A stretch of DNA of 64,000 bases from Kineococcus rubinsiae (GTDB lineage Bacteria > Actinomycetota > Actinomycetes > Actinomycetales > Kineococcaceae). Numbering within the stretch: position 1 is the first letter of the stretch; each line of letters begins with the position of its first letter. The notes under the pieces were generated by a model. The model saw only the letters and a program-made list of their open reading frames with translations. It ran no database searches and was not told where the DNA came from. The stretch covers positions 124,001-188,000 of the forward strand of contig NZ_VWPY01000002.1 in assembly GCF_011839805.1 (NCBI RefSeq). Reading direction: 5' to 3'. The translations under genes were made by a program, and so were the position numbers. Below are positions 12,372 through 44,080 of the stretch, piece after piece.

Positions 12372-12423
12372 GCTGACGAGACGACATCAACATCACCTGC
12401 TCGTGATAAGAACGGAACCCCTC

Positions 12424-13299
12424 ATGGACCTCGCCCTGCACGTCAGCGACTTCACCGGCGCGGGCGACCCCGCCCGCATCGCCCCCACGCTGGCCGCCAC
12501 CGCCCGCGCCGCCGACACCACCGGCTTCTCGACGCTGACGCTCATGGACCACTTCTTCCAGATGCAGGACATGGCGCCGGCCACCGACCCGATGCTCGAG
12601 GGCTACACGGCCCTGGGGTTCCTGGCCGGCCAGACCGAGCACCTGCAGCTGGGGCTGCTCGTCACGGGCGTCACCTACCGCCACCCCGGCCTGCTCGCCA
12701 AGACCGTCACGACGCTGGACGTGCTGTCCGGTGGCCGGGCGCTGCTGGGCATCGGCGCGGCCTGGTACGAGCGGGAGCACCTCGGCCTCGGCGTGCCGTT
12801 CCCGCCCGTCGCCGAGCGGTTCGAGCGCCTCGACGAGGCCCTGCGCGTGGTCAAGCAGATGTGGAGCGACGACGACGGCCCCTTCGCGGGGACGTTCTCC
12901 ACGCTGGCCGAGACGCTGAACTCCCCTCAGTCGCTGCGGCGCCCGCACCCCCCGATCCTCATCGGGGGCATGGGGGAGAAGAAGACGCTGCGCCTGGTCG
13001 CCCGCCACGCCGACGCCTGCAACCTGTTCGCCGCCGGGCCCGACGTCATCGCCCACAAGGTCGAGGTGCTGCGGGGGCACTGCGAGACCGAGGGCCGCGA
13101 CCCCGCCGAGATCGCCACCACTGTCATCGGTGGGCCGGACCCGCTGGACGCGACCGACGACTTCCTCGCCGCGGCGCGCGAGTACGCCGGCCTCGGCGTC
13201 AGCACGCTGTGGGTGGGGGCCCCGCTGGGCCACCCGGACCCCGCGGCCTGGGTCACCCGCGTCGGCACCGAGGTCCTGCCCCGCGTCCGCGACCTCTGA
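12424..13299 (+). CDS. LLM-class (luciferase-like) F420-dependent oxidoreductase
   Basis: A 291-residue luciferase-fold TIM barrel. Features of the F420-dependent group are visible: MDHFFQ near residue 40, LLVTGVTYRHPGLLAKTVTTLDVLSGGR around 79-106, GIGAAWYEREHLGLG, and the PILIGGMGEKKTL strand. Such proteins transfer hydride from F420H2 (some from FMNH2) to diverse small molecules; the substrate is unknown. The ATG at 12424 is chosen as the first residue of the core fold; no strong ribosome binding site is present. It is followed by two palindromic repeats. Confidence 0.88.
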   Translation: MDLALHVSDFTGAGDPARIAPTLAATARAADTTGFSTLTLMDHFFQMQDMAPATDPMLEGYTALGFLAGQTEHLQLGLLVTGVTYRHPGLLAKTVTTLDVLSGGRALLGIGAAWYEREHLGLGVPFPPVAERFERLDEALRVVKQMWSDDDGPFAGTFSTLAETLNSPQSLRRPHPPILIGGMGEKKTLRLVARHADACNLFAAGPDVIAHKVEVLRGHCETEGRDPAEIATTVIGGPDPLDATDDFLAAAREYAGLGVSTLWVGAPLGHPDPAAWVTRVGTEVLPRVRDL

Positions 13300-13366: not shown

Positions 13367-13397
13367 GTGATCATGCAGGTAAACCCTGCATGATCAC
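13367..13397. repeat. Palindromic repeat, copy 2
   Basis: GTGATCATGCAGG, the spacer TAAAC and CCTGCATGATCAC form a perfect 13-bp stem. The element ends just before the TetR stop codon and has the same spacer as copy 1, from which it is separated by a G-rich stretch. Confidence 0.75.
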
Positions 13398-13402
13398 GGG
13401 GG

Positions 13403-14116
13403 TCAGGTGGCGGCGGTGACGGGGGAGAGGGCGGCCAGCAGGTCGTGGCCGTCGGCGACGGCCGCGTCGACGGCCGCCGGGGCCAGACCCACCACCCGCA
13501 GGCACGCCGCCGCCAGGTCGTCGGCCACGCCCGGCCCGGGCGTCCCGTCGCGGCGCAGCGGGATGACGAGCTCCACGACCTGCAGGCACAGCGCCCCCAG
13601 CAGGTCGGGGTCGGGGGACTGCGGCGCGCTCGCGGCCGCGAGCCGCGTGTAGGCGGCCAGCAGCTCCGCGCGGTGGCGGCGGAAGCTGTCGAAGCCGGGC
13701 TGCTGCACCTCGTGCGCGGCGTACAGGGTCCCGACGTTGTGGGGTGCCCGCAGCAGCGTCGCGACGTCCACGCTGACCAGGGCGTGCAACGCCACCTCGG
13801 CCCGGTCCGCGCGGGCCTCGATCGCTGCGACCAGGTCGAGCGTCGGGCGGACCGAGTTCTCCAGCAGCTCCAGCAGGAGCTCGTCCTTGCCGGCGAAGTG
13901 GTAGTACAGCGACGCCTGCCGGATGCCGACGCGCTCCGCGATCGCGCGCGTCGACGTCCCGGCGTAGCCGAGCTGGGTGAACAGCTCCGCGGCCGCGTCG
14001 AGGATCTCGGCGCGGGGTTCGCGGGCGCCCTGAGGCGGTCCGCCGGTGCGGGCCGCCCGGGGGCGGCCCACGCTGGGTCGACCTCCTCGGGGCGGGGCTG
14101 CGTCGTCGCTGCTCAC
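13403..14116 (-). CDS. TetR-family regulator of the guanidine/urea operon
   Basis: A 237-residue TetR protein. After a 30-residue Arg/Pro-rich N-terminus, the helix-turn-helix occupies about residues 35-80 (GTSTRAIAERVGIRQASLYYHFAGKDELL). The C-terminal helical domain is ligand-binding. It is the last gene of the six-gene operon, and its GTG overlaps the TGA of the allophanate hydrolase gene. A CAGGAT hexamer 7 nt upstream could give an additional leaderless transcript. The obvious target is the 26-bp palindrome upstream of the first gene (22693-22718), giving autoregulation; this is inference. Confidence 0.88.
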   Translation of the reverse strand: MSSDDAAPPRGGRPSVGRPRAARTGGPPQGAREPRAEILDAAAELFTQLGYAGTSTRAIAERVGIRQASLYYHFAGKDELLLELLENSVRPTLDLVAAIEARADRAEVALHALVSVDVATLLRAPHNVGTLYAAHEVQQPGFDSFRRHRAELLAAYTRLAAASAPQSPDPDLLGALCLQVVELVIPLRRDGTPGPGVADDLAAACLRVVGLAPAAVDAAVADGHDLLAALSPVTAAT

Positions 14117-15822
14117 GAGGCCGATCCTGCCAGCCCGGCACCCGCCGGCCGGAGGTCGCCACCCGCCAGCGCCGCCCGCCAGCCGCCCGTCGCCGTGATG
14201 TCGCGCGCCCCCGCCAGCGCCGCCGGTTCGCAGAGGAACCCGGGGACCGTCCGGCCGTCGTCGAGGTCGACCGCGCCGACCGCCATGGGGTGCGGCAGCG
14301 CGGCGACGAAGGTCGCGAACCCCGCCGCGGGCAGGCGCCAGAGCTCCCCGGCGATGGCGGCGCCGTCGCCCGGGGTGCGCACCAGCCCGGGCTTCGGCGG
14401 CGTGGTGTCCAGGGCGTGCAGGCGGTAGTGCGGCGCCGTGGTCACGGCCTCGCCGAACGTCGCGCCCGCGGCCACCAGCTGGTGGTTCAGGGGCTGGCCC
14501 GTGAGGTGCGCGCCGACGACCACGAGGTCGAGCGTCGGCGCCGCGAGCCGGGTCGCCAGGTCGGCCAGCAGCCGGTCGTCGAAGGCGGCGCCCGTGAGCA
14601 TCACCCCGAACGGCAGCCCGTCGACCGTCCCGGCCGGCACCGCCAGGGACGACAGGTCGAGGAGGTTCGCGAAGTTCGTGTACCGGCCGAGGCGGGCGTT
14701 GGCCCCCACCGGGTCGGCCGCGACCTCGGTGAGCGTCGGGTGCGACGTCGTCGTGGGGGTGAGCAGCGCCACCGTCCCGGCCAGGGCGGCGCGGCCGGCG
14801 ACCCCGAGCCGCTCCAGCCGCTCGGTGTCGCGCAGCAGGTCGACGGCGGTGAACCGGGCCCCGCCCAGCACGATGCGCGCGACCACCGGGTCCAGGTCGG
14901 TGCCCACGAGCTCGGGGTGCGCCGCGACGTGGTCGCCGACGGCCGCGGTGCGCTCGGCCACGAAGGCGCCGTCGTAGAGCAGGGTCGCGGCCTCCAGCAG
15001 CGGGCTGATGTCGACCTCCACGACCTCGACGCCGCTGCGGCGCAAGCGGTCCACGGCCGCGGCGAACGCCTCGGCCCACCCGGGCGCGAGGTCGCGCAGG
15101 TGCCCGGGCGCGGGGACCGCCACGCGGGCCAGCGCCGAGGCGGGGCGGCCGCCCGCGTCCGGCCGGGCCAGCGGATCGACCCCGTCGACGCCGGTGAGCA
15201 GCTCCACCGTCCGCCGGGCCAGGGCGAGGTCCCGCGCGAACACCGTGACGCAGTCCAGGCTGCGGCACGCGGGCACGACGCCGGTCGTCGGCAGCAGCCC
15301 GCGCGTGGGCTTCACGCCGACGATGCCGTTGAGCGCGGCCGGGACGCGGCCGGACCCCGCGGTGTCGGTGCCGAGGGCCACGTCGACGAGGCCGAGGGCC
15401 ACCGCCACGGCGGACCCGGAGCTGGACCCGCCCGAGATCCGGTCCGGGGCCCACGCGTTGCGGACCGCCCCGTGCGGGCTGCGGGTGCCGACGAGGCCCG
15501 TGGCGAACTGGTCGAGGTTCGTCTTGCCTAGCACCACCGCGCCCGCGGCCCGCAGCCGGGCGACGACGGTCGCGTCCGCCGCGGGGTCGTAGGCGTAGGA
15601 GGGAGCGCCCGCCGTGGTCGGCAGCCCCGCGACGTCGACGTTGTCCTTCACCGCGGCCACCAGCCCGGCCAGCGGCAGGTCCTCGCCGGCGGCGACCGCC
15701 GCGTCGACGGCCGCGGCCTCCGCGAGCGCGTCCTCGCGCTCGCGCAGCGCGATCCACACCTCGGGCCGGTCCGCCTCGGCGATCCGCGCGTAGGCGGCCC
15801 GCACGCGTTCGACGGCGTTCAC
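14113..15822 (-). CDS. atzF: Allophanate hydrolase
   Basis: A 569-residue amidase-signature enzyme that converts allophanate to ammonia and CO2. The Ser-cisSer-Lys triad is visible as Lys59 (AAVKDN), Ser133 (GGSSSGS) and Ser157 (DTAGSGR). The length matches two-domain AtzF: amidase domain to about residue 430, then the C-terminal decarboxylation domain (PLNHQL, FLCEPAALAGARDIT). Its GTG overlaps the stop of the carboxylase gene by 4 bp. It is the last catabolic step of both the urea and the guanidine carboxylase pathways. Confidence 0.93.
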   Translation of the reverse strand: MNAVERVRAAYARIAEADRPEVWIALREREDALAEAAAVDAAVAAGEDLPLAGLVAAVKDNVDVAGLPTTAGAPSYAYDPAADATVVARLRAAGAVVLGKTNLDQFATGLVGTRSPHGAVRNAWAPDRISGGSSSGSAVAVALGLVDVALGTDTAGSGRVPAALNGIVGVKPTRGLLPTTGVVPACRSLDCVTVFARDLALARRTVELLTGVDGVDPLARPDAGGRPASALARVAVPAPGHLRDLAPGWAEAFAAAVDRLRRSGVEVVEVDISPLLEAATLLYDGAFVAERTAAVGDHVAAHPELVGTDLDPVVARIVLGGARFTAVDLLRDTERLERLGVAGRAALAGTVALLTPTTTSHPTLTEVAADPVGANARLGRYTNFANLLDLSSLAVPAGTVDGLPFGVMLTGAAFDDRLLADLATRLAAPTLDLVVVGAHLTGQPLNHQLVAAGATFGEAVTTAPHYRLHALDTTPPKPGLVRTPGDGAAIAGELWRLPAAGFATFVAALPHPMAVGAVDLDDGRTVPGFLCEPAALAGARDITATGGWRAALAGGDLRPAGAGLAGSAS

Positions 15823-18800
15823 GCGGCCGCCCCGATCGCGAGCAGGACCTGGCCGGGGGACACGGGCTGGCCCGGGCGCACGTACACCTCGAGCACCTCC
15901 CCGGACACGGGTGCGGTCATGGCCGTCTCCATCTTCATCGCCTCCAGGGCCAGCACGCGGTCGCCGCTGGCCACCCGGTCGCCCGCCGCGGCGCTGACCT
16001 GCCACACGGTCGAGGAGAACGGGGCCCGCACGGCCGTCGCACCGGCGGGCAGCTCCACCTGCGCGGGGGCCGGCGGCGGCGGGGGTTCGGGCTTGACGTC
16101 GAACTCCCCGGACGCGCGCCACCGGTCCTTCTCCGCCGCGAACGCCGCGGCCTGGGTGGCGCGGAACGCGGCGATCGAGGAGGCGTTCTCCGCGAGGAAG
16201 GCCTCGTGCGCGGCGAGCGCGAACGTGCCGTCCTCCGTCTCGAACTCCCCGCGGCCCGCGTCGGTCTCGGCGCGCAGCTCCAGCAGCTCCTCCGCCGAGA
16301 CGGGGTACCACTCGATGCGGTCGAACGGGCGCAGCGCCCACGGGTCCCCCGTGAACAGCCCGCCGCGCCGGAACCGGTTCCACACCTGCACCGTGCGGCC
16401 GACGAACTGGTACCCGCCGGGGCCCTCCATGCCGTACACGCACAGGTAGGCGCCGCCGATGCCGACGGAGTTCTCCGCCGTCCACGTCCGGGCCGGGTTG
16501 TACTTCGTCGTCACCAGCCGGTGGCGCGGGTCCAGCGGCGTCGCCACGGGGGCCCCGAGGTAGACGTCGCCGAGGCCCAGGACGAGGTAGGAGGCGTCGA
16601 ACACGGTGCGGTGCACGTCGTCGACGGAGTCCAGGCCGTTGATGCGCCGGATGAACTCGATGTTCGACGGCGTCCACGGGGCGTCGTCGCGCACGCCGGC
16701 GACGTAGCGCTCGATGGCCAGGCGCGTCGCCGGGTCGTCCCACGACAGGGGGAGCCGGACGCGGCGCGAGGGCACGACGAGCTCGGAGGTGACCGGCAGG
16801 TCCTCCTCCAGCTCGCGCAGCAGCCCGACGAGGGAGCTGGCGCGCACGACCGCGGGGTCGGTGTGCACCTGCAGGGAGCGGATCCCCGGGGTGACGTCGA
16901 CGATCCCGGCCGGGGCGGCGGCCGCCAGCGCCTCCTGCAGGGCGTGCACCCGCATCCGGAGCCCGAGGTCGAGGACCTGCTCGCCGTACTCGACGAGGAG
17001 GTTGTCGTCGCCGTCGCGGCGGTAGGTCACCGCCGGGCGGCCCGGCGCGGGCGCGGTGCGGCCCAGCACGCCGTCGTCGCCGTCCCCGCCGGGTGCGGGG
17101 GGTGTCGGCGCGCCGCGGTGCGCGTCCAGGGCGGCGGCCGCGGCCTCGCGCACGGGGACGAAGCGCACCCGGTCTCCCGGGCGCAGCTGCCCGAGCTTCC
17201 ACAGGTCGCCGCTGGCGACCACCGCGGGGCAGACGAAGCCCCCGAGGCTCGGCCCGTCGGGGCCCAGCACGATCGGGGTGTCGCCCGTGAAGTCGAGCGA
17301 GCCCACGGCGTAGGGGGTGTCGTGGATGTTCGAGGGGTGCAGCCCGGCCTCGCCGCCGTCCTCGCGCGCCCAGGCCGGGCGCGGCCCGATCAGCCGGACC
17401 CCCGTGCGCGCCGAGTTCAGGTGGACCTCGTAGTCGGTGGCGTACAGGACGTCCACGTCCTCGCGGGTGAAGAACTCCGGGGCCGCGTGCGGACCCTCGG
17501 TGACCGCGATCCGCCACGTGTCCGTCAGGTGCGGGCGGCGGTGCGCGGGCGTCGGGCCGCCGAGGCGGCTCAGCTGCGTGCCCGCGGGGAACGCCGGGTG
17601 GTCGGCGGCGGAGTCGGGGGAGCCGGGGCGCAGGACGTCGCCGACCTGCAGGGCGCGACCGCCGTGACCGCCGAAGCCGCCGAGGGTGAACGTCGAGGCA
17701 CTGCCCAGGTAGGGCGGGACGTCGAACCCGCCGCGCACGGCGACCGCGAGGCGCAGCCCCGGGCCGGGCGCCGTGCCGATGGCCAGCACGCCGCCCGCGG
17801 GCACCTCGAGGGGTTCCCACATCGGCACGTCGGCGCCGTCGATGCTCACCGGCGCCGGGGCCCCGGTGACGCACACGACCGTCGCCGTGGAGAACCGCAG
17901 CGTCGGGCCGGTCGCCGTGACCTCCAGGCCCGGTGCGCCCTCGGGGTTGCCGACGGCCAGGTTCGCCTCGCGCAGCGACACCGGGTCCATGGGCCCCGAC
18001 GGCGGCACGCCCACCTGCCAGTACCCCGTGCGGCCCGGCAGGTCCTGCACCGTGGTCATGGCCCCCGGGTCGAGGACGTCGACGCGGGGGTCGGGGTCCG
18101 TCGTGACGTCGAGGGTGGACGTGGAGTGCGTGGCCGAGCGCAGCGGCAGGTCGCCGACCTGGGCGCGCAGCAGGCCGAGGTTCGTCACGATGCCGTCGAC
18201 GCGGCTCGCGGTGAGCGCCTCGTCGAGCAGGTCCAGCGCGCCCTCACGCGTCGGGGCGGTGGCGATCACCTTGGCCAGCAGCGGGTCGTAGGCCGCCGAC
18301 ACCTCGGTGCCCGTCTCCACCCAGCCGTCGACGCGCACCCCGGCGAGCTCGCCCGCGCCCTGGCCGGGGAACACCGCCCGCGTCACCAGCCCGGAGCTCG
18401 GGGTGCAGCCGCGGGCGGGGTCCTCGGCGTAGACGCGGGCCTCCACGGCGTGCCCGGTGGCGCGCCAGGTGCGGCCCAGCACGTCCTGCACCCCGGACGC
18501 CCCGTCGCGGGCCAGGCGCAGCATGGCCGCCACGAGGTCGACGCCGTAGGCGAGCTCGGTGACGGGGTGCTCGACCTGCAGGCGCGTGTTCACCTCGAGG
18601 AAGGCGGCCTCCTCGCGCACCGGGTCGTAGACGAACTCGACCGTGCCGGCCGAGCGGTAGCGCACCGAGGCCATGAGGTCGTGCGCGGTCGCGGCGATCT
18701 CCCGGCGCACGGCCGCCGGCAGCGCGGGGGCCGGGGCCTCCTCGACGACCTTCTGGTTGCGCCGCTGCAGCGAGCAGTCGCGGTCCCCGATCACGGCGAT

Positions 18801-19475
18801 GCCGCCGAGGCCGTCGCCGAACACCTGCACCTCGACGTGGCGGGCGGGGCGCACGAGGCGCTCGAGGAACACCCCGGTGGAGGAGAAGCTCGCGGCCGCC
18901 TGCCGCACCACGCGGTCGTAGGCCTCGCGGACCTCGTGCTCGCTCGCGCAGGCCTGCATGCCGATCCCGCCGCCGCCGCCCGTGGCCTTGAGCATGACGG
19001 GCAGCCCGATCCGCACGGCGGCCTCGACGGCCTCCTCGGCGGAGGCCAGCAGTCCCGTGCCCGCGAGCATGGGCACGCCTGCGCGGCCCGCGAGCTCGCG
19101 GGCCGTGTGCTTGCTGCCGAAGGCGGTGATCTGCTCCGGGGTGGGGCCGACGAACGCCAGCCCCGCGGCCTCGACCGCGGCCGCGAACTCCACGTTCTCC
19201 GACAGGAACCCGTAGCCGGGGTGCACGGCACCGGCGCCGGTGGCCAGGGCCGCCTCGAGGACGGCGTCGGCGCGCAGGTAGGACTCGCGCGCCGCGGCCG
19301 GGCCGAGGCGGACGGCGGTGTCGGCCTCGCGCACGTGGGGGGCGGCCCGGTCGGCGTCGGAGAACACCGCGACGGTGCGCAGGCCGAGCTCGCGCGCCGA
19401 GCGCAGGACGCGGCGGGCGATCTCCCCGCGGTTGGCGACGAGGAGCGCGTCGAAGGCGGGCGGGGTGCTGGTCAC
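15819..19475 (-). CDS. Biotin-dependent urea/guanidine carboxylase
   Basis: A 1218-residue single-chain carboxylase. Order: biotin carboxylase (residues 1-450, LLVANRGEIARRV, KATGGGGGIGMQ, EVNTRLQVEHPVTE), KipA-like and KipI-like carboxyltransferase halves (about 500-1100, with PGRTGYWQVGVPPSGPMDP and SNIHDTPYAVGSLDFTGD), and a C-terminal biotin carrier domain with EAMKMET (biotinyl Lys1181). It carboxylates urea to allophanate or guanidine to carboxyguanidine with ATP and bicarbonate. The two DUF1989 genes upstream favour guanidine. One Asn/Asp position in the carboxyltransferase separates the two activities in characterised enzymes, but I cannot place it without an alignment. GTG start overlaps the upstream TGA. 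Confidence 0.93.
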   Translation of the reverse strand: MTSTPPAFDALLVANRGEIARRVLRSARELGLRTVAVFSDADRAAPHVREADTAVRLGPAAARESYLRADAVLEAALATGAGAVHPGYGFLSENVEFAAAVEAAGLAFVGPTPEQITAFGSKHTARELAGRAGVPMLAGTGLLASAEEAVEAAVRIGLPVMLKATGGGGGIGMQACASEHEVREAYDRVVRQAAASFSSTGVFLERLVRPARHVEVQVFGDGLGGIAVIGDRDCSLQRRNQKVVEEAPAPALPAAVRREIAATAHDLMASVRYRSAGTVEFVYDPVREEAAFLEVNTRLQVEHPVTELAYGVDLVAAMLRLARDGASGVQDVLGRTWRATGHAVEARVYAEDPARGCTPSSGLVTRAVFPGQGAGELAGVRVDGWVETGTEVSAAYDPLLAKVIATAPTREGALDLLDEALTASRVDGIVTNLGLLRAQVGDLPLRSATHSTSTLDVTTDPDPRVDVLDPGAMTTVQDLPGRTGYWQVGVPPSGPMDPVSLREANLAVGNPEGAPGLEVTATGPTLRFSTATVVCVTGAPAPVSIDGADVPMWEPLEVPAGGVLAIGTAPGPGLRLAVAVRGGFDVPPYLGSASTFTLGGFGGHGGRALQVGDVLRPGSPDSAADHPAFPAGTQLSRLGGPTPAHRRPHLTDTWRIAVTEGPHAAPEFFTREDVDVLYATDYEVHLNSARTGVRLIGPRPAWAREDGGEAGLHPSNIHDTPYAVGSLDFTGDTPIVLGPDGPSLGGFVCPAVVASGDLWKLGQLRPGDRVRFVPVREAAAAALDAHRGAPTPPAPGGDGDDGVLGRTAPAPGRPAVTYRRDGDDNLLVEYGEQVLDLGLRMRVHALQEALAAAAPAGIVDVTPGIRSLQVHTDPAVVRASSLVGLLRELEEDLPVTSELVVPSRRVRLPLSWDDPATRLAIERYVAGVRDDAPWTPSNIEFIRRINGLDSVDDVHRTVFDASYLVLGLGDVYLGAPVATPLDPRHRLVTTKYNPARTWTAENSVGIGGAYLCVYGMEGPGGYQFVGRTVQVWNRFRRGGLFTGDPWALRPFDRIEWYPVSAEELLELRAETDAGRGEFETEDGTFALAAHEAFLAENASSIAAFRATQAAAFAAEKDRWRASGEFDVKPEPPPPPAPAQVELPAGATAVRAPFSSTVWQVSAAAGDRVASGDRVLALEAMKMETAMTAPVSGEVLEVYVRPGQPVSPGQVLLAIGAAA

Positions 19476-20179
19476 GAGGTGGGCTCCGGGGCGGTCGTCG
19501 ACGCGTCGGTCGTGGTGGTGCGGGGGCGGGTCACGAGCATCCGCAGCGGCGTCGGGTTGAACGCGTTGCAGGGGTTGTTGACCTGGGGGCAGTTCGACAC
19601 GACCACGAGGACGTCCATCTCGGCCCGCACCGCGACCCGCTTGCCGGGGCCGGAGATGCCGTCGACGATGCCGAGCGAGCCGTCGGCCTCGACGGGGACG
19701 TTCATGAACCAGTTGAGGTTCGAGACGAGGTCGCGCGCCCCGAGGCCGTGCTTCGCGGCCTCGGCGAGGAAGTTCTCCCGGCAGCCGTGCTGGAACGCCG
19801 TGTGGTGGCCGTAGCGCAGGGTGTTGGACTCCTTGCCGCACGCGCCGCCGATGGTGTCCTGGCGGGCGACCTCGTTGCCCACCACCGTCATCAGCGGGGT
19901 CCCGAGGCCGCTGCGCAGCACGGTGCCCTGGCGCACGTAGGCGTTGCCCTGCCACGTGAGGGTGTCGGGGACGCTGTAGCGCTCGGTGGTGTCGTGGGCG
20001 TTGAACACGAGGCAGTCGGCCGACTGGTTGCCGCCGACGTCGACGATGGTGAGGACGTCGCCGGCCGAGACGACGGCCGACCAGGGAGCGCGGGGTGCGA
20101 CGCGCTCGTCGAGGACGACGTCGCCGTCCACGAGGGGAGAACCCCAGTCGAGACGGCTGGTGCTGGTGGTGGTGGTCAT
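19472..20179 (-). CDS. DUF1989 protein, carboxyguanidine deiminase subunit (urea carboxylase-associated)
   Basis: A 235-residue protein of the family long labelled urea amidolyase-associated and later shown to form a heteromeric carboxyguanidine deiminase. Family motifs include GGNQSADCLVFNAHDTTERYS, GGACGKESN and NCPQVNNPCNAFNPTP, with several conserved Cys and His residues. The ATG overlaps the TGA of the sister gene (ATGA) and its own stop overlaps the carboxylase start. It would convert carboxyguanidine to allophanate together with the neighbouring DUF1989 protein. Which subunit is CgdA and which CgdB is not decided here. Confidence 0.82.
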   Translation of the reverse strand: MTTTTSTSRLDWGSPLVDGDVVLDERVAPRAPWSAVVSAGDVLTIVDVGGNQSADCLVFNAHDTTERYSVPDTLTWQGNAYVRQGTVLRSGLGTPLMTVVGNEVARQDTIGGACGKESNTLRYGHHTAFQHGCRENFLAEAAKHGLGARDLVSNLNWFMNVPVEADGSLGIVDGISGPGKRVAVRAEMDVLVVVSNCPQVNNPCNAFNPTPLRMLVTRPRTTTTDASTTAPEPTS

Positions 20180-21045
20180 GCGAGGCCCCGGGCTCCCAGG
20201 TGGTCGAGGGTGTTCAGGTAGGCCCGCCGGCGCTCCGGCGAGGCCGAGAACCGCGCGTCGGCGGGGGTGGTGGGCTGGGCGCGCCAGGCGTGCACGCGCA
20301 GCGGCCCGACGACGTAGTCCTCGCGCGGGTCCAGCGGGTGCGGGACGTTCGCGAGGAGCACCACGAGCGGCACCTCCGCGAGCAGGTCGACGCTCGCCCC
20401 GGGGCCCGCGGAACCCAGCCAGCGGAACCCACCGTCGGCCTCCACGCGCACGCCCTGGAAGAACGAGACGCTCGGCGGCAGGTCGCGCGGGCCGAGGCCG
20501 TGCTTGGCGGCCGCCAGCGTGAACAGCGCGCGCCCCGAGGGCGTCGGCCCCTCGGGGGCCGGGTCGCCGTGTCGGGCCCGGACCCACGCGTCCGACGACG
20601 TGCCGCAGAAGGCGTCGTGGTGGCCGGAGGTGTCGGCGACGACGGTGGCGAGGACTCGGCCCTCGCCGGACAGCAGCGGGTGCCCCTCGCCCAGGTAGGC
20701 CTGCCACGGGATCTTCTGGGTGTCGGCGACGTTCAGCCGCTCCCACGGCTCGAGCGCGGAGAACACCAGGACGTGCGCGCACGCGTCGCCCGTGACGTCC
20801 TCCAGCCGCAGCCGCGTCCCGCGGGCCAGGACCTTGTGGGTGTAACCGCCGGGGGCGACGGTCTCCGCCCACGTCAGCATCTCGGGGTCCACACCCGCGG
20901 GCGGGTGGGGGCTCGACGACGCCGGCACGTGGGGCATCCAGTCCGAGCGCAGGCCCTCCTGGGCGCGGGCGTCGGCGCGGGCCGCGAGGACGCTCGCGGT
21001 GTCGCGGGCCCCCGTCGCGGGGGAGGTGGGGGACGGGGCGGTCAC
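20176..21045 (-). CDS. DUF1989 protein, second carboxyguanidine deiminase subunit
   Basis: A 289-residue DUF1989 protein, longer than its neighbour because of an N-terminal extension of about 50 residues. Motifs: GDACAHVLVFSALEPWERLN, KIPWQAYLGEGHPLLS, GHHDAFCGTSS and PSVSFFQGVRVEADG. It lacks the NQSAD motif of the sister protein, consistent with two different subunits. It starts with a GTG that overlaps the permease stop. Together with the following gene it marks this operon as a guanidine degradation operon in current understanding. Confidence 0.8.
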   Translation of the reverse strand: MTAPSPTSPATGARDTASVLAARADARAQEGLRSDWMPHVPASSSPHPPAGVDPEMLTWAETVAPGGYTHKVLARGTRLRLEDVTGDACAHVLVFSALEPWERLNVADTQKIPWQAYLGEGHPLLSGEGRVLATVVADTSGHHDAFCGTSSDAWVRARHGDPAPEGPTPSGRALFTLAAAKHGLGPRDLPPSVSFFQGVRVEADGGFRWLGSAGPGASVDLLAEVPLVVLLANVPHPLDPREDYVVGPLRVHAWRAQPTTPADARFSASPERRRAYLNTLDHLGARGLA

Positions 21046-22664
21046 GGGGCGCTCACCTCGGCGGGCTGGGGGGCGGGGACGGCCACGGCGCCGAGCACGA
21101 TGGCCCCGCCGTGGCGGACGCGGTTGCGCCAGTGCACGAGGGCACCGACGACCAGCGAGGTCGCGATGAACAGCAGGGCGCTCCACTGCAGCCACCACGT
21201 GCCGCCGGTCAGGTCGTAGACGGCCGCCCGCGGCCACGCCAGGTTGACGACCATCACCGCCTGGAACAGCACGGCGACGGCGTTGACGGCGATCCCGGCG
21301 CGGCCCAGGGAGAACAGCGGCCGGCCGTCCTCGTCGGTGCGCCCGGCCGCGAAGCCGACGGCGTCCAGGCCGGCCTGCGGCGCGCGGGCCTGCCGGACGC
21401 GGGTGACGAGCAGGGGCAGCGTGACGCCCAGGTAGGCCAGGTAGAGCATCGCGATGCACAGGCTGGCCAGGGCGGTGAACACCGCGCTCTGGTTCCAGTT
21501 CACGGCCAGCGCGATCGCGGCGCCGACGCCGACGACGACGGACGTCGCGACGGGAGTGCCCGTGCGGGCGGACACCGCTCCGAGGACGCCCGAGAACGGC
21601 AGCGCGCGCTCGCGGGCCATCGAGAACATCATCCGCGAGCCCGACGTCTGCACCGCCAGGGTGCAGGCGAAGACCGCGACGGCGACCGCGACGAGGAGGA
21701 TCCGCCCGCCCACGTCGCCCAGCCGCGTGGTCAGGACGCCGGCCAGGCCGCCCGAGGCGAGGGTGCCGTCGGTGAGGCTCGGCGCCGCGATCAGACCCGC
21801 GACGATGAGCAGCAGACCGCCCAGGCCCGAGAGGGTCAGGGCCCGCAGGATCGTGCGGGGGGTGGTGCGGCGCGGGGCGTGGGTCTCCTCGGAGAGCTCG
21901 CCGGCGGAGTCGAAGCCGACCATGACGTAGGCCGCCATGAGCGAGGACGCGAGCCACAGCGGGAGGTAGGTGCCGGGTGACGCGCCCTCGGTGGTGACGA
22001 CGACGGCGGGGCTGCGCTCGGCGTGCGTGGCCAGCGCCACGACGAGGGCGACGACGCCGAGGATCTCGATGACCACCCCGACGCTGGTGAGCATGGCCAT
22101 CAGGCGCACGCCGATGATGCTGATGACCGTCGTGACGACCAGGAGCAGCACGCCCAGGACGACGGCGTTCTGCGCGCCGGTCGCGCTCGTGGGGGAGGAG
22201 TCGGCACCGGACCCGCCGACGAGCTGGAAGCCGGACCAGATGGCGGGCAGCACGGCCTGCAGCGCGATGGCGGCGGTCGCGACGGTGAGGACCTGCCCGA
22301 TCACCATGATCCAGCCGGTGAACCACCCGGTGTCCGTGCCCGCCAGGCGGGAGGACCACTGGAAGATGGCGCCGGAGATCGGGTAGCGGGCGGCGAGCTC
22401 GGCGAAGCACAGGGCGACGAGCAGCTGGCCGGCGAAGACCGCGGGCCAGGTCCAGAAGAACCCGGCGCCGCCGAAGCTGAACCCCAGGCCGAAGAGCTGG
22501 AACACGGTCGTGAGGATCGAGACGAACGAGAACCCCGCCGCGAACGACGCGAACGAGCCCACGCCGCGGTGCAGCCGCTGGTCGTAGCCGAACGTCGCGA
22601 GGTCGTGGTGGTCTCCCGGGCCGGTGGGGCTCGCGGGGGCGGGACGCGGTGCGGGAACGGTCAT
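21042..22664 (-). CDS. APC-superfamily permease (amino acid/amine type)
   Basis: A 540-residue membrane protein with about twelve hydrophobic segments. The N-terminal HRGVGSFASFAAGFSFVSI and GFDSAGELSEETHAPRRTTP are typical of the amino acid-polyamine-organocation superfamily. As first gene of the operon encoding a carboxylase and allophanate hydrolase it most likely imports the nitrogen source (guanidine or urea). The ATG at 22664 is the first start ahead of the conserved region. Upstream lie a 26-bp palindrome and a GlnR-like box. Confidence 0.87.
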   Translation of the reverse strand: MTVPAPRPAPASPTGPGDHHDLATFGYDQRLHRGVGSFASFAAGFSFVSILTTVFQLFGLGFSFGGAGFFWTWPAVFAGQLLVALCFAELAARYPISGAIFQWSSRLAGTDTGWFTGWIMVIGQVLTVATAAIALQAVLPAIWSGFQLVGGSGADSSPTSATGAQNAVVLGVLLLVVTTVISIIGVRLMAMLTSVGVVIEILGVVALVVALATHAERSPAVVVTTEGASPGTYLPLWLASSLMAAYVMVGFDSAGELSEETHAPRRTTPRTILRALTLSGLGGLLLIVAGLIAAPSLTDGTLASGGLAGVLTTRLGDVGGRILLVAVAVAVFACTLAVQTSGSRMMFSMARERALPFSGVLGAVSARTGTPVATSVVVGVGAAIALAVNWNQSAVFTALASLCIAMLYLAYLGVTLPLLVTRVRQARAPQAGLDAVGFAAGRTDEDGRPLFSLGRAGIAVNAVAVLFQAVMVVNLAWPRAAVYDLTGGTWWLQWSALLFIATSLVVGALVHWRNRVRHGGAIVLGAVAVPAPQPAEVSAP

Positions 22665-22692
22665 GGGGGGTGCCCTCGGTTCGGCCGGCGCT

Positions 22693-22718
22693 CCATACCT
22701 GTCGGGCGACAGGTATGG
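22693..22718. promoter_or_regulatory. 26-bp perfect palindrome, candidate TetR operator
   Basis: CCATACCTGTC, then GGGC, then GACAGGTATGG: 11-bp perfect arms with a 4-bp centre, 29 bp upstream of the permease start. Likely operator of the operon's own TetR protein; it could also fold as an RNA hairpin in the leader. Confidence 0.65.
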
Positions 22719-22740
22719 ACCCAAGTCTCGCCAGGGGGGT

Positions 22741-22767
22741 GTTGCGTCCGTGTTTCCCGGTGGTGAA
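22741..22767 (-). promoter_or_regulatory. GlnR-box-like sequence
   Basis: On the minus strand the order is TTCAC, 6 nt, GAAAC, 6 nt, GCAAC. The actinobacterial GlnR consensus alternates GTnAC and GAAAC at 6-nt spacing, so one subsite matches fully and two with one mismatch. Nitrogen control of this operon would make biological sense. Confidence 0.4.
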
Positions 22768-22918
22768 ACCTGCGTTGCCGCGCCGGGGGCGACCACCGCG
22801 GTCCGCGTGCGCCCGAGCGGGCCGGACGGCGGCACTCTGCCCACTCCCGCGGGCCCCGGCTGGGCGCATGTGCCACCCGGTGGTCCCGATCGTGACCGGC
22901 CCGCGCGGCGCGGCGGTG

Positions 22919-22947
22919 TTGGAGCGCACCCGCGCATCCCCTAACGT
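22919..22947 (+). promoter_or_regulatory. Promoter of the peptide importer operon
   Basis: TTGGAG (22919-22924), 17 bp, TAACGT (22942-22947): a good housekeeping-type promoter, with transcription expected near 22954. The rest of the 347-bp divergent region 22665-23011 holds the palindrome and the GlnR-like box; nothing else was seen. Confidence 0.6.
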
Positions 22948-23011
22948 CCTCCTCGCTGTGCGCGCCTCGCGCAGCGCAGGACCTCCGCTGGAGAAGAGAA
23001 CGAGGACGCCG

Positions 23012-24730
23012 ATGCCCGAGTCGCTGAAGCCCGAGACGACGCAGCCGACCCGACCCACCCGACGCGCATTCACCCTCGCGTCCCTGTCGGTGGCCGCCCT
23101 GGCCACCGCGAGCGCGTGCGCCGAGAGCGAGCGCGAGAGCGGGAGCGGGGAGAGCAGCAGCAGCGGCGGCGGCAGCGAGGTCGACACCTTCGTCTTCGGC
23201 GGCTCGGCCGACCCGGACTCCCTGGACCCGACGTTCGCCTCCGACGGCGAGACCTTCCGCGTCAGCCGGCAGATCTTCGAGGGCCTGATCTCGACCAAGC
23301 CCGGCACCACCGAGCTCGCCCCCGGGCTGGCCACGAAGTGGGACGCCTCCGAGGACGGCCTGAGCTACACGTTCACGCTGCAGGAGGGCGTCACCTTCTC
23401 CAACGGCAAGCCGTTCGACGCCGCGGCCGTCGTCGCGAACTTCGAGCGCTGGTACAACCTGCGCGGCCTCGCCCAAGGCGAGGACCTCGCGTACTACTAC
23501 CGCTCCATCTTCCGCGGCTTCAAGATCAACGACGACCCCGCGCTGACCACCAGCCTCTACGCGGGCTCGACCGCCAACCCCGACGGCACCGTGACGGTCA
23601 ACCTCACGAGCCCCTTCGCCGGGTTCCTCGCCTCGCTGACCCTGCCCGCGTTCGGCATGCAGGAGACGGGCGCCGTCGAGGCCGGTGGCGGCAACGGCAC
23701 CGACGGCAGCGACCCCCGCCAGAGCGCGTACGCCACGACCGGCCCGGTCGGCACCGGCCCGTTCGTGTTCAGCGCGTGGGAGCGCGGCCAGCAGCTCACG
23801 CTGAAGCGCAACGACACCTACTGGGGCGAGAAGGCGAAGGTCGCCACGGCCATCGTCCGCTTCATCTCCGACGGCACCGCCCGCCGCCAGGCCCTGCAGA
23901 ACGGCGACATCGACGGCTACGACCTCGTCGCCCCCGCCGACGTCGAGACGCTCAAGAGCGGCGACTTCCAGGTCCAGAACCGCCCGGCGTTCAACATCCT
24001 CTACCTGGGCATCAACCAGGCGGCCCCGGGCCTGGGCGACCTCAAGGTCCGCCAGGCGATCGCCCACGCGATCGACAAGGACGCCGTCGTGAAGAACTCC
24101 CTGCCCGAGGGCACGAAGGCCGCCACGCAGTTCGTGCCGGACAACGTCATCGGCTACAACAAGGACGTCACGACCTACGCGTACGACCCGGACGCGGCCA
24201 AGAAGCTGCTCGCCGAGGCGGGTCAGGCGAGCCTCGCCCTGAAGTTCAACTACCCGACCGGCGTCTCGCGGCCCTACATGCCGAACCCGGAGACGATCTA
24301 CAAGGCGATCTCCAGCCAGCTCACGGCCGTCGGGATCCAGATCACCCCCGTCGCGGAGCAGTGGAACCCCAACTACCTGGGCACCGTGCAGGGCGGGGCG
24401 GACCACGGCGTCCACCTGCTCGGCTGGACCGGCGACTACAACGACCCCGACAACTTCGTCGGCGTGTTCTTCGGCGCGCAGACGAACGAGTGGGGCTTCA
24501 ACGACCAGGGCCTGTTCGATGCCCTGGCCAAGGCGCGCACGGCGACCAGCGAGGACGCCCAGGTCAGCGCCTACGAGGACATCAACGAGCAGATCATGAC
24601 GCTGCTGCCGGGCATCCCGATCGCCAGCCCGGTGCCGTCGCTGGCCTTCGCGCCCGGGGTCGACGGCTACACCGCCAGCCCCGTCCAGGACGAGGTCTGG
24701 AACCTCGTCTCGGTGAGCAAGGACAGCTGA
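23012..24730 (+). CDS. Peptide-type ABC transporter substrate-binding lipoprotein
   Basis: A 572-residue SBP_bac_5 (DppA/OppA) protein. The signal contains a twin arginine (R17-R18) and a cysteine at residue 36 after TASA, followed by a Ser/Gly-rich linker, so it is a lipoprotein. Mature-part motifs are typical: DSLDPTF, GLATKWDASEDGLSYTF, VGTGPFVFSAWERGQQLTLKRND and NILYLGINQ. GAGGA precedes the ATG. It heads a complete importer operon. Ligand (peptide, nickel chelate or other) is not predictable; proximity to the guanidine operon suggests a nitrogen-related role only weakly. Confidence 0.92.
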   Translation: MPESLKPETTQPTRPTRRAFTLASLSVAALATASACAESERESGSGESSSSGGGSEVDTFVFGGSADPDSLDPTFASDGETFRVSRQIFEGLISTKPGTTELAPGLATKWDASEDGLSYTFTLQEGVTFSNGKPFDAAAVVANFERWYNLRGLAQGEDLAYYYRSIFRGFKINDDPALTTSLYAGSTANPDGTVTVNLTSPFAGFLASLTLPAFGMQETGAVEAGGGNGTDGSDPRQSAYATTGPVGTGPFVFSAWERGQQLTLKRNDTYWGEKAKVATAIVRFISDGTARRQALQNGDIDGYDLVAPADVETLKSGDFQVQNRPAFNILYLGINQAAPGLGDLKVRQAIAHAIDKDAVVKNSLPEGTKAATQFVPDNVIGYNKDVTTYAYDPDAAKKLLAEAGQASLALKFNYPTGVSRPYMPNPETIYKAISSQLTAVGIQITPVAEQWNPNYLGTVQGGADHGVHLLGWTGDYNDPDNFVGVFFGAQTNEWGFNDQGLFDALAKARTATSEDAQVSAYEDINEQIMTLLPGIPIASPVPSLAFAPGVDGYTASPVQDEVWNLVSVSKDS

Positions 24731-43875: not shown

Positions 43876-43954
43876 GCCGGCCCGCGCGGGGGCGGTGGAC
43901 GGCCTCCGGACGGCGCGGACCCGCGTGGCACACTGACGGCGACAGACCACGACA

Positions 43955-44080
43955 CGCGTGCTCCGGGGTCGGTGAAAACCCGAACCGGCGGTGACAGTCC
44001 GCGAGCCCTCGCCTCGGCGGGGGCTGACCCGGTGGAACTCCGGGACCGACGGTGACAGTCCGGATGAGAGGCAGCGCGCG
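43955..44080 (+). ncRNA. FMN riboswitch (RFN element)
   Basis: All conserved RFN blocks are present in order: CTCCGGGGTCGGTG, CCGAACCGGCGGTGACAGTCC, ACCCGGTGGAACTCCGGGACC, GACGGTGACAGTCCGGATGAGAGG. The closing helix P1 pairs GCGTGCT (43956-43962) with AGCGCGC (44073-44079). It lies in the leader of ribD and would shut the riboflavin operon when FMN is high. A possible expression platform is the hairpin GGTGCG/CGCACC at 44130-44147, flanked by GGAG and CTCC, about 50 nt after the aptamer. A hexamer CACACT (43930-43935) could be the promoter -10. The rest of the 330-bp gap 43876-44205 shows nothing else. Confidence 0.97.

Follow-up and report, generated by a model that had tools for sequence, protein, structure and literature searches.

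A predicted guanidine-utilization operon in Kineococcus rubinsiae with an AmtR-family repressor and a candidate pathway effector

A six-gene cluster in Kineococcus rubinsiae is very probably a guanidine-utilization operon, judging from the families and signature residues of its predicted proteins. Taking the explanation as a whole, we consider it likely that this operon is repressed by its own AmtR-family protein through a palindromic operator and is relieved, most plausibly, by a compound of the pathway. The cluster lies in a stretch of 64,000 nucleotides, analyzed at its full length and referred to here as the window.

Organization of the operon

The six genes occupy the minus strand from 22664 to 13403, and neighboring genes overlap by 4 nt at all five junctions, from which we strongly infer that they are co-transcribed. 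The genes and the predicted elements around them are as follows.

21042..22664, minus strand: gene 1, APC-superfamily permease, predicted guanidine importer (540 aa; AA_permease_2)
20176..21045, minus strand: DUF1989 protein UAAP1, predicted carboxyguanidine deiminase subunit (289 aa; TIGR03425)
19472..20179, minus strand: DUF1989 protein UAAP2, predicted carboxyguanidine deiminase subunit (235 aa; TIGR03424)
15819..19475, minus strand: biotin-dependent carboxylase carrying D728 and D970, the residue signature of guanidine carboxylases (1218 aa; TIGR02712)
14113..15822, minus strand: allophanate hydrolase (569 aa; NF006043 and TIGR02713 over cut-off; AH_C domain)
13403..14116, minus strand: AmtR-family TetR repressor, final gene (237 aa; TetR_N from Pfam)
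22692..22719, no strand assigned: predicted AmtR operator, a perfect palindrome with 13-nt arms and a 2-nt center, 27 nt before the permease ATG
22741..22767, minus strand: candidate GlnR box TTCAC-n6-GAAAC (1 mismatch), then a weaker second a-site
13367..13397, minus strand: 13-bp hairpin after tetR, possible terminator common to the convergent gene (fold z-score, -5.5)

The first-pass annotation had placed the permease, the two DUF1989 proteins, the carboxylase, and the allophanate hydrolase in one operon with a TetR gene of its own. All of these genes were recovered, and the TetR protein, whose GTG start codon overlaps the stop of the allophanate hydrolase gene, proved to be related to AmtR, and a site that matches the AmtR operator is present. 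The carboxylase scores 1734.5 bits against TIGR02712 (cut-off, 1303.85), UAAP1 scores 291.7 bits against TIGR03425 (cut-off, 205.95), and UAAP2 scores 314.3 bits against TIGR03424 (cut-off, 284.7); the permease reaches 636 bits against TIGR03428, under the curated cut-off of 740. The hairpin at 13367-13397 was not called by a terminator scan, and a promoter consensus scan of 22600-23050, which is uninformative for this genome, returned no match. A divergent oligopeptide-type ABC transporter (23012 onward) was rejected as a member of the system because relatives of its binding protein are rarely present and do not adjoin carboxylase or amtR genes elsewhere. Such a relative (E <= 1e-40) occurs in 7 of the 38 searched genomes, K. 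rubinsiae counted, and across these 38 none was found beside a carboxylase or amtR locus outside the window.

By the description in PMC4222082, Krad_0901-0906 of Kineococcus radiotolerans and msmeg_2184-2189 of M. smegmatis comprise the same gene set. The Krad cluster, like ours, has amtR last and reading frames that all overlap by GTGA or ATGA (PMC4222082). That paper treats them as a putative urea operon that includes urf1 and urf2; we read the cluster as one for guanidine catabolism and add a specificity residue and a possible effector.

Guanidine or urea as the substrate

The first-pass annotation had proposed that the carboxylase acts on guanidine and had pointed to Asn at the specificity position as the sign against it. 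An Asp/Asn criterion separates guanidine from urea carboxylases in PMC11410670, and the window's carboxylase carries Asp: D728 aligns with N737 of 3va7, equivalent to N1330 of K. lactis urea amidolyase (5i8i), where a urea carboxylase in the strict sense has Asn. The second signature residue, D970, aligns with D991 of 3va7, equivalent to K. lactis D1584. We infer a preference for guanidine over urea from this alignment. In our genus sample, which excludes M. smegmatis itself and has a best AmtR identity of 90%, Asp was read by eye in 30 of 30 loci, the best of 115 carboxylase loci. The Asp and Asn types are not cleanly separated in the carboxylase tree, where they need two changes; 8 of its 23 inner branches are open and the K. 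lactis branch is long.

The DUF1989 pair is predicted to form a carboxyguanidine deiminase, as the first-pass annotation had also held, and both the UAAP1/UAAP2 cut-offs and the tree placement agree with this. The operon encodes one DUF1989 protein from each UAAP family, the subunit composition of CgdAB. Both proteins side with the UAAP1 and UAAP2 counterparts of a guanidine-riboswitch operon (L160) with split support of 100/100, in a tree that left out other DUF1989 outgroups and carries a long-branch warning for the L160 UAAP1 row. Cys114, Cys133, Cys197, and Cys204 of UAAP2 are invariant in 109 of 109 aligned sequences, and UAAP2 likely bears the metal site. The operon resembles the guanidine carboxylase-CgdAB-allophanate hydrolase pathway of Pseudomonas syringae and nitrifiers described in PMC11410670, with the same enzymes and the Asp signature, and its APC permease matches that of the nitrifiers.

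The initial observation that no urease is visible holds for the window's contig (C2), where no urease match was found, but not for the genome, which has urease alpha genes elsewhere, two of them above the curated cut-off (C31:9462-11156 and C46:26274-27965). Absence of urease was therefore rejected as an argument for guanidine; redundancy with the genome's urease itself favors guanidine as the substrate. Among the matches listed, urease above cut-off is present in 29 of 36 Asp-type genomes versus 1 of 9 Asn-only genomes (p 2e-4).

Co-occurrence across genomes

A survey of the class covered 394 genomes, and we read 49 carboxylase loci: the 48 listed matches that cover the carboxyltransferase part, plus the window. 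Among these matches, 36 of 49 loci have Asp and both DUF1989 genes without a guanidine riboswitch, 11 have Asn with neither DUF1989 genes nor AmtR nearby, and 2, directly under guanidine-I riboswitches, have Met rather than Asp at the specificity position. An AmtR-like protein (E <= 1e-25) occurs in 42 of the 394 genomes, including all 36 of the Asp type. It lies in the same fetched stretch at 33/36 Asp, 0/11 Asn, and 0/2 Met loci among the matches listed. Among these matches, 25 of the 36 Asp loci and none of the 11 Asn loci contain the exact core CTGTC-N4-GACAG; the best of 29 permuted-arm controls reaches 4 of 36 Asp loci. Asp carboxylase, DUF1989 pair, AmtR, and operator co-occur. Because the genomes are related, the counts are not independent.

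The association also appears when the search begins from the regulator: among the 80 best AmtR homologues from named records, picked by likeness to the window's AmtR, 72 are flanked by a carboxylase, and the residue is Asp in 72 of 72. The association has exceptions. Among the matches listed, 11 of 36 Asp loci lack the exact operator core, and 6 of 42 AmtR-bearing genomes have no carboxylase. Contig ends truncate several loci, including L026, L041, L050, L091, L116, and L136, and alignment A2 leaves out L129 and L149. In the genus sample, 50 of 115 carboxylase genomes lack AmtR at a stricter cut-off. In one genus, the neighbor of some AmtR-like genes is not a carboxylase but an ABC transporter of the oligopeptide type, accompanied by an operator pair.

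Guanidine riboswitches

Four RNA classes sense guanidine, the guanidine-III riboswitch among them. A whole-window Rfam scan returned an FMN riboswitch only, and a permissive scan of 22600-23120 gave two unrelated sub-threshold matches and no guanidine riboswitch, so a sub-threshold guanidine riboswitch before the operon was rejected. The initial statement that no ykkC-type riboswitch is apparent withstands both this upstream covariance-model search and the whole-window scan, and the operon lacks the upstream guanidine aptamer that defines guanidine-riboswitch operons. Rfam scans likewise found no guanidine riboswitch at the 35 fetched Asp loci; 4 of the 11 Asn loci were scanned with Rfam.

Guanidine-I and guanidine-III riboswitches were also searched in 53 chosen genomes under stricter filters. 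Guanidine-III riboswitches occur elsewhere in 23 of 36 Asp-type genomes among the matches listed. The K. rubinsiae genome itself has one before a SugE-like SMR exporter gene, away from the catabolic operon. In the guanidine-III/SMR exporter system, the RNA sensor stands at the exporter gene; none was found at the catabolic operon here. The arrangements described in PMC11410670 stand under guanidine-I riboswitches, whereas here an AmtR operator is in place and no riboswitch was detected. A 2025 review predicts, in its passage on this point, that carboxylases not tied to riboswitches are urea specific (PMC12186494). Among the matches listed, the 36 Asp-type loci that are associated with AmtR and lack a riboswitch are an exception to that rule as worded there.

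The AmtR-type repressor and its predicted operator

In both sequence and fold, the TetR protein is nearer to AmtR than to other TetR proteins. Its top six matches to PDB sequences have E values of 8e-33 to 3e-27, the next being 1e-10, and its closest solved relatives are 5e57 (M. smegmatis AmtR) and C. glutamicum AmtR. An AlphaFold2 model (pLDDT 92) retrieved 14 top Foldseek chains that are all titled AmtR. The protein shares fold and family with C. glutamicum AmtR (5dxz, 5dy0, and 5mqq), and the site spacing is equal (CTAT-N6-ATAG and CTGT-N6-ACAG).

Within the predicted ligand domain, D117, N127, Y132, Y156, and E182 do not vary among the 103 readable operon-linked AmtRs, and position 136 is E in 99 and D in 4 of the same 103 (105 sequences, two gapped at the counted positions). 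Of 20 AmtRs for which no neighboring carboxylase was found, 19 also keep D117 and E182, so these residues are not diagnostic of operon-linked proteins. Several of D117, E136, E182, Y132, and Y156 differ in C. glutamicum AmtR, which has E117, I136, F156, and M182 at the corresponding positions.

The palindrome at 22692-22719, which the first-pass annotation did not mention, agrees with the AmtR consensus TAtCTGTCa-n2-cGACAGATAT quoted in PMC8864220 at 16 of 19 fixed positions, and both CTGTC/GACAG half-sites are exact. It is a predicted AmtR-family operator by sequence, and repression of the operon by AmtR through it is highly probable. The 18-bp core has one mismatch-free match genome-wide, this very site, which suggests a local regulon. 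With up to 2 mismatches, the core occurs at 4 places in the genome versus 7 for a reversed control; within the window, a looser core allowing up to 2 mismatches shows no enrichment (5 found, 6.1 expected), and in one chance test the pattern was drawn from the operator site itself. The GlnR motif is not enriched across the window either (46 matches, 73 expected). Beside the AmtR operators of relatives it is enriched, with GlnR half-boxes flanking 47 of 82.

Proposed mechanism and alternatives

We propose that the permease would import guanidinium, the biotin carboxylase would turn guanidine into carboxyguanidine, the DUF1989 pair would deiminate this to allophanate, and allophanate hydrolase would split allophanate into ammonia and CO2. 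The AmtR-family protein would bind the palindrome at the predicted promoter and repress the operon and itself, and GlnR, acting at the adjacent box, probably adds a response to nitrogen status. Once the cluster is read as a guanidine operon, guanidinium is the obvious candidate effector of AmtR. Guanidinium would be the most likely relief signal, with carboxyguanidine second, and the conserved ligand-domain residues D117, E136, E182, Y132, and Y156, which are acidic or aromatic, may hold it. That a pathway compound is the effector is a prediction to which we give about an even chance, and guanidine sensing in these bacteria may be protein based.

The AmtR of a guanidine operon could, as an unlikely alternative, read nitrogen status through the PII protein GlnK and bind no small molecule. 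C. glutamicum AmtR, a global nitrogen regulator, has no known small effector, and relief by adenylylated GlnK has been proposed for Corynebacterium (PMC8864220); once glnK is deleted, genes under AmtR control are no longer upregulated there (PMC7919409). In M. smegmatis, AmtR binds DNA upstream of msmeg_2184 and is a repressor of that operon; in the account of PMC4222082, neither urea nor amino acids affect this binding. However, even in C. glutamicum the GlnK-AmtR complex could not be reconstituted in vitro (PMC7919409), and PII reportedly has no role in regulating the nitrogen response of mycobacteria (PMC4617892). Nitrogen control in M. smegmatis persisted without AmtR and needed GlnR (PMC4222082). 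Residues altered in C. glutamicum AmtR, where I136 and M182 replace acidic residues, are kept in the operon-linked AmtRs, and the single mismatch-free operator at the 18-bp level suggests a local regulon.

Somewhat less likely still is that AmtR responds to another inducer, for instance methylguanidine or a compound that resembles creatine or derives from peptides. Creatine and creatinine genes are under AmtR control in C. glutamicum (PMC8864220), and the AmtR-like genes beside the oligopeptide-type ABC transporter and operator pair would fit this idea. Yet the strongest association of AmtR is with the guanidine pathway (the 72 of 80 homologues above), and the divergent ABC transporter in the window is not a conserved neighbor of the operon. 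That the annotation is simply correct, with urea carboxylase, allophanate hydrolase, and accessory DUF1989 proteins, is very improbable despite the name urea carboxylase in NCBIfam and earlier papers (PMC4222082), given Asp at the discriminating position, a urease already in the genome, and Asn carboxylases in the same class that lack DUF1989 genes and mostly lack urease.

Returning to a pathway compound as effector, titles and abstract openings in the literature gave no description of a protein guanidine sensor. A search of partial coverage found no AmtR-guanidine link, and the co-mentions examined concern the arginine guanidino group or other guanidino compounds. We tentatively suggest, at somewhat below even confidence, that AmtR began in Actinomycetes as a guanidinium-responsive repressor devoted to guanidine catabolism, a protein equivalent of the guanidine riboswitches. 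In many of the same cells, guanidine-III RNA would govern export, AmtR catabolism, and GlnR nitrogen status; Corynebacterium would later have altered the guanidinium pocket and made AmtR a master regulator under GlnK control.

A 2013 paper reported that AmtR controls this cluster and interpreted it as urea metabolism (PMC4222082). If our proposal is true, it would correct that reading of the M. smegmatis AmtR regulon and identify the AmtR signal outside Corynebacterium, where urea showed no effect in 2013. AmtR would also be a useful guanidine biosensor, and a TetR-type sensor would explain how the operon could be induced in Actinomycetes without a riboswitch at the catabolic operon.

Carboxylase residues fall on the guanidine side

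The first-pass annotation had described an operon with its own TetR gene, and we recovered its six minus-strand genes at exactly matching positions, with NCBIfam and Pfam identifying their families. The genes are ordered permease, UAAP1, UAAP2, carboxylase, allophanate hydrolase, and TetR, with 4-nt overlaps joining neighbors at every junction; UAAP1 and UAAP2 are two DUF1989 families, the predicted carboxyguanidine deiminase subunits. The window features discussed here are as follows:

13367-13397, minus strand: 13-bp hairpin (fold z-score -5.5) flanked by two convergent genes, tetR and one for a luciferase-like monooxygenase (12403-13299)
22692-22719: perfect palindrome TCCATACCTGTCG-GG-CGACAGGTATGGA, separated from the permease ATG by 27 nt
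22752-22767: candidate GlnR half-box, a motif without enrichment across the window as a whole
43954-44079, plus strand: FMN riboswitch (Rfam, 87.4 bits), the sole Rfam match in the window

We read the carboxylase specificity residue, as had been proposed. According to the available text of PMC11410670, Asp at K. lactis position 1330 plus Asp at 1584 distinguishes guanidine from urea carboxylases; these positions align with D728 and D970 of the window carboxylase, on the guanidine side. Across 394 genomes from the class Actinomycetes, at least 35 score over the cut-off, and the window together with 48 loci (49 in total) comprises every match listed that covers the carboxyltransferase part. Among these matches, 36 of the 49 combine Asp with UAAP1 and UAAP2, while 11 carry Asn and no DUF1989 genes, with the hydrolase present in ten and the eleventh ending at a contig end. 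The remaining two of the 49 listed (L051 in G085 and L052 in G015) encode Met-type carboxyltransferase proteins beside DUF1989 genes, and Rfam places both under guanidine-I riboswitches. The Asp rule therefore misses some guanidine-linked enzymes, and the Met type may represent a third substrate class. A tree of the carboxylases does not sort the residue types cleanly; it requires two changes between Asp and Asn, leaves 8 of 23 inner branches open, and has a long branch for K. lactis. In one family of loci (L039 to L050), the match lacks the biotin carboxylase part and the carboxylase seems to be split; several of these loci have no allophanate hydrolase within the fetched stretch.

The first-pass annotation had also argued from the absence of a urease, which does not hold: the window's genome has one, and a urea carboxylase there would therefore be redundant. 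Urease alpha scores above the cut-off in 29 of 36 Asp-type genomes versus 1 of 9 Asn-only genomes (p 2e-4), as expected if the Asn type alone replaces urease. Also in the window's genome, about 5.6 kb separates a second urease alpha gene from a gene paralogous to that of the window's ABC binding protein (C46:26274-35180), and a like pair lies about 8.6 kb apart on contig C1 of G266.

DUF1989 proteins group with those of a riboswitch-bearing operon

We compared the DUF1989 proteins with those of an Agrobacterium plasmid operon carrying guanidine-I and guanidine-II riboswitches. The tree of 14 UAAP1 and 14 UAAP2 rows separates the two families with 100/100 support and places the Agrobacterium proteins on the matching sides, although it has no other DUF1989 outgroup and the Agrobacterium UAAP1 row is a long branch. 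Within these bounds, the proposed membership in the deiminase clades is supported. The Agrobacterium carboxylase likewise has Asp at the specificity position. Four cysteines are invariant in all 109 UAAP2 sequences, and three of them have cysteine counterparts in an alignment with trimethylamine N-oxide demethylase, which suggests a putative metal site.

A guanidine riboswitch lies elsewhere in the genome

The claim that no ykkC-type riboswitch is present was confirmed: Rfam finds no guanidine riboswitch in the window, and scanning under permissive settings revealed nothing relevant in the intergenic region before the operon. Nor did Rfam scans detect one in the 35 fetched Asp loci. Among 53 chosen genomes, 35 score above the cut-off for guanidine-III, including 23 of the 36 Asp-type genomes. 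The window's genome carries it at C32:123352-123418, where it overlaps the beginning of an SMR gene. SugE is that gene's top NCBIfam match, at 95 bits and short of the 126-bit cut-off, and in the two loci checked (L067 and L070) a SugE-like gene is placed likewise. Two alphaproteobacterial Asp-type operons (L158 and L159) have no Rfam riboswitch in the stretch; they adjoin CopG-type and LysR-type genes, respectively, possibly other protein regulators of guanidine catabolism.

An AmtR-family regulator accompanies the Asp type

By sequence and model fold (pLDDT 92), the nearest solved relatives of the TetR protein are the AmtR proteins of M. smegmatis (5e57) and C. glutamicum. AmtR-like proteins (E ≤ 1e-25) occur in 42 of the 394 genomes, namely all 36 of the Asp type and six with no carboxylase among the matches listed (Fisher p 4e-45, with related genomes but Asp types spanning 14 genera). 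AmtR is encoded inside the fetched stretch, about 10-18 kb long, at 33 of 36 Asp, 0 of 11 Asn, and 0 of 2 Met loci, and elsewhere in the genome in the remaining three Asp genomes. A scan of named records, restricted to the best 80 of 451 AmtR homologues, found a carboxylase in the fetched flank of 72, always with Asp; 71 of these have both DUF1989 genes and the last ends at a contig end. The other eight comprise two at contig ends and six from Nocardioides, none of which has a carboxylase close by. In a one-genus sample of 297 genomes, 65 of the 70 that encode a close AmtR also carry the carboxylase, but 50 of 115 carboxylase genomes lack AmtR at the strict cut-off; in one of those 50 (G337), a more distant AmtR adjoins the operon.

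The palindrome, which the first-pass annotation did not mention, agrees with 16 of 19 fixed positions of the AmtR consensus of several Actinomycetes, TAtCTGTCa-n2-cGACAGATAT, quoted in the available text of PMC8864220; the predicted site is thus of an operator type already known. The same text gives CTAT-N6-ATAG for C. glutamicum. The 26-bp core, a pattern derived from the site itself, occurs once in the window at ≤3 mismatches and in none of 100 shuffles. For the 18-bp core, the 4.88-Mb genome contains a single mismatch-free match and four at ≤2 mismatches, versus seven for the reversed control; CTGTC-N4-GACAG has three genome sites versus one. Exact copies of this short core number 35 across 25 of the 36 Asp loci; none occurs at the 11 Asn loci, and 47 of the 80 named loci (best 80 of 451 homologues) contain one. 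None of the 29 other orders of these arm letters is present at more than 4 of 36 loci, and none of four other spacings at more than 1.

Of 82 operator sites with distinct flanks, 47 have a GlnR half-box (GTnAC-n6-GAAAC, ≤1 mismatch, following the consensus in the available text of PMC10704036) no more than 150 bp away, whereas 50 dinucleotide-model sequence sets gave 2.6 on average and never more than 5. This pattern fits M. smegmatis, in which nitrogen control required GlnR, with AmtR acting as a secondary repressor (PMC4222082, in part). AmtR-like genes also stand beside operator pairs 75-95 bp apart at L056, L057, L061, L062, and L064; the divergent gene is an oligopeptide-type ABC ATPase at L056, L057, and L061 and a similarly placed long frame at L064. 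Some of these genes, next to an oligopeptide-type ABC transporter, come from the genus sampled above. AmtR-type proteins therefore reach beyond the guanidine pathway.

Guanidinium is a candidate AmtR effector

The K. radiotolerans cluster, with its amtR and gene overlaps, was described in 2013 (PMC4222082, in part); descriptions of the guanidine carboxylase pathway followed in 2020-2021, as cited in the available text of PMC11410670. Our literature search, partial in coverage, returned no match for joining the two, for an Asp/Asn split tracking DUF1989 genes, AmtR, and urease, for a partition in which riboswitches serve export and AmtR serves catabolism, or for guanidinium as an AmtR ligand; we claim no priority.

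In M. smegmatis, AmtR represses the msmeg_2184 operon from an upstream site, and its binding was insensitive to urea and amino acids (PMC4222082, in part). The GlnK model of C. glutamicum AmtR has a genetic basis, and in vitro reconstitution of the complex failed (PMC7919409, in part). D117, N127, Y132, Y156, and E182 are identical in all 103 readable operon-linked AmtRs, with E (99) or D (4) at position 136. In contrast, C. glutamicum AmtR has E117, I136, F156, and M182; the relative at L063 has E117, T136, F156, and L182. Because D117 and E182 are likewise retained in 19 of 20 AmtRs for which no neighboring carboxylase was found, these two alone fail to mark the operon-linked proteins. The conserved acidic and aromatic residues would probably suit the guanidinium cation better than neutral urea. 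If the operon serves guanidine, guanidinium would be the natural candidate for the AmtR effector.
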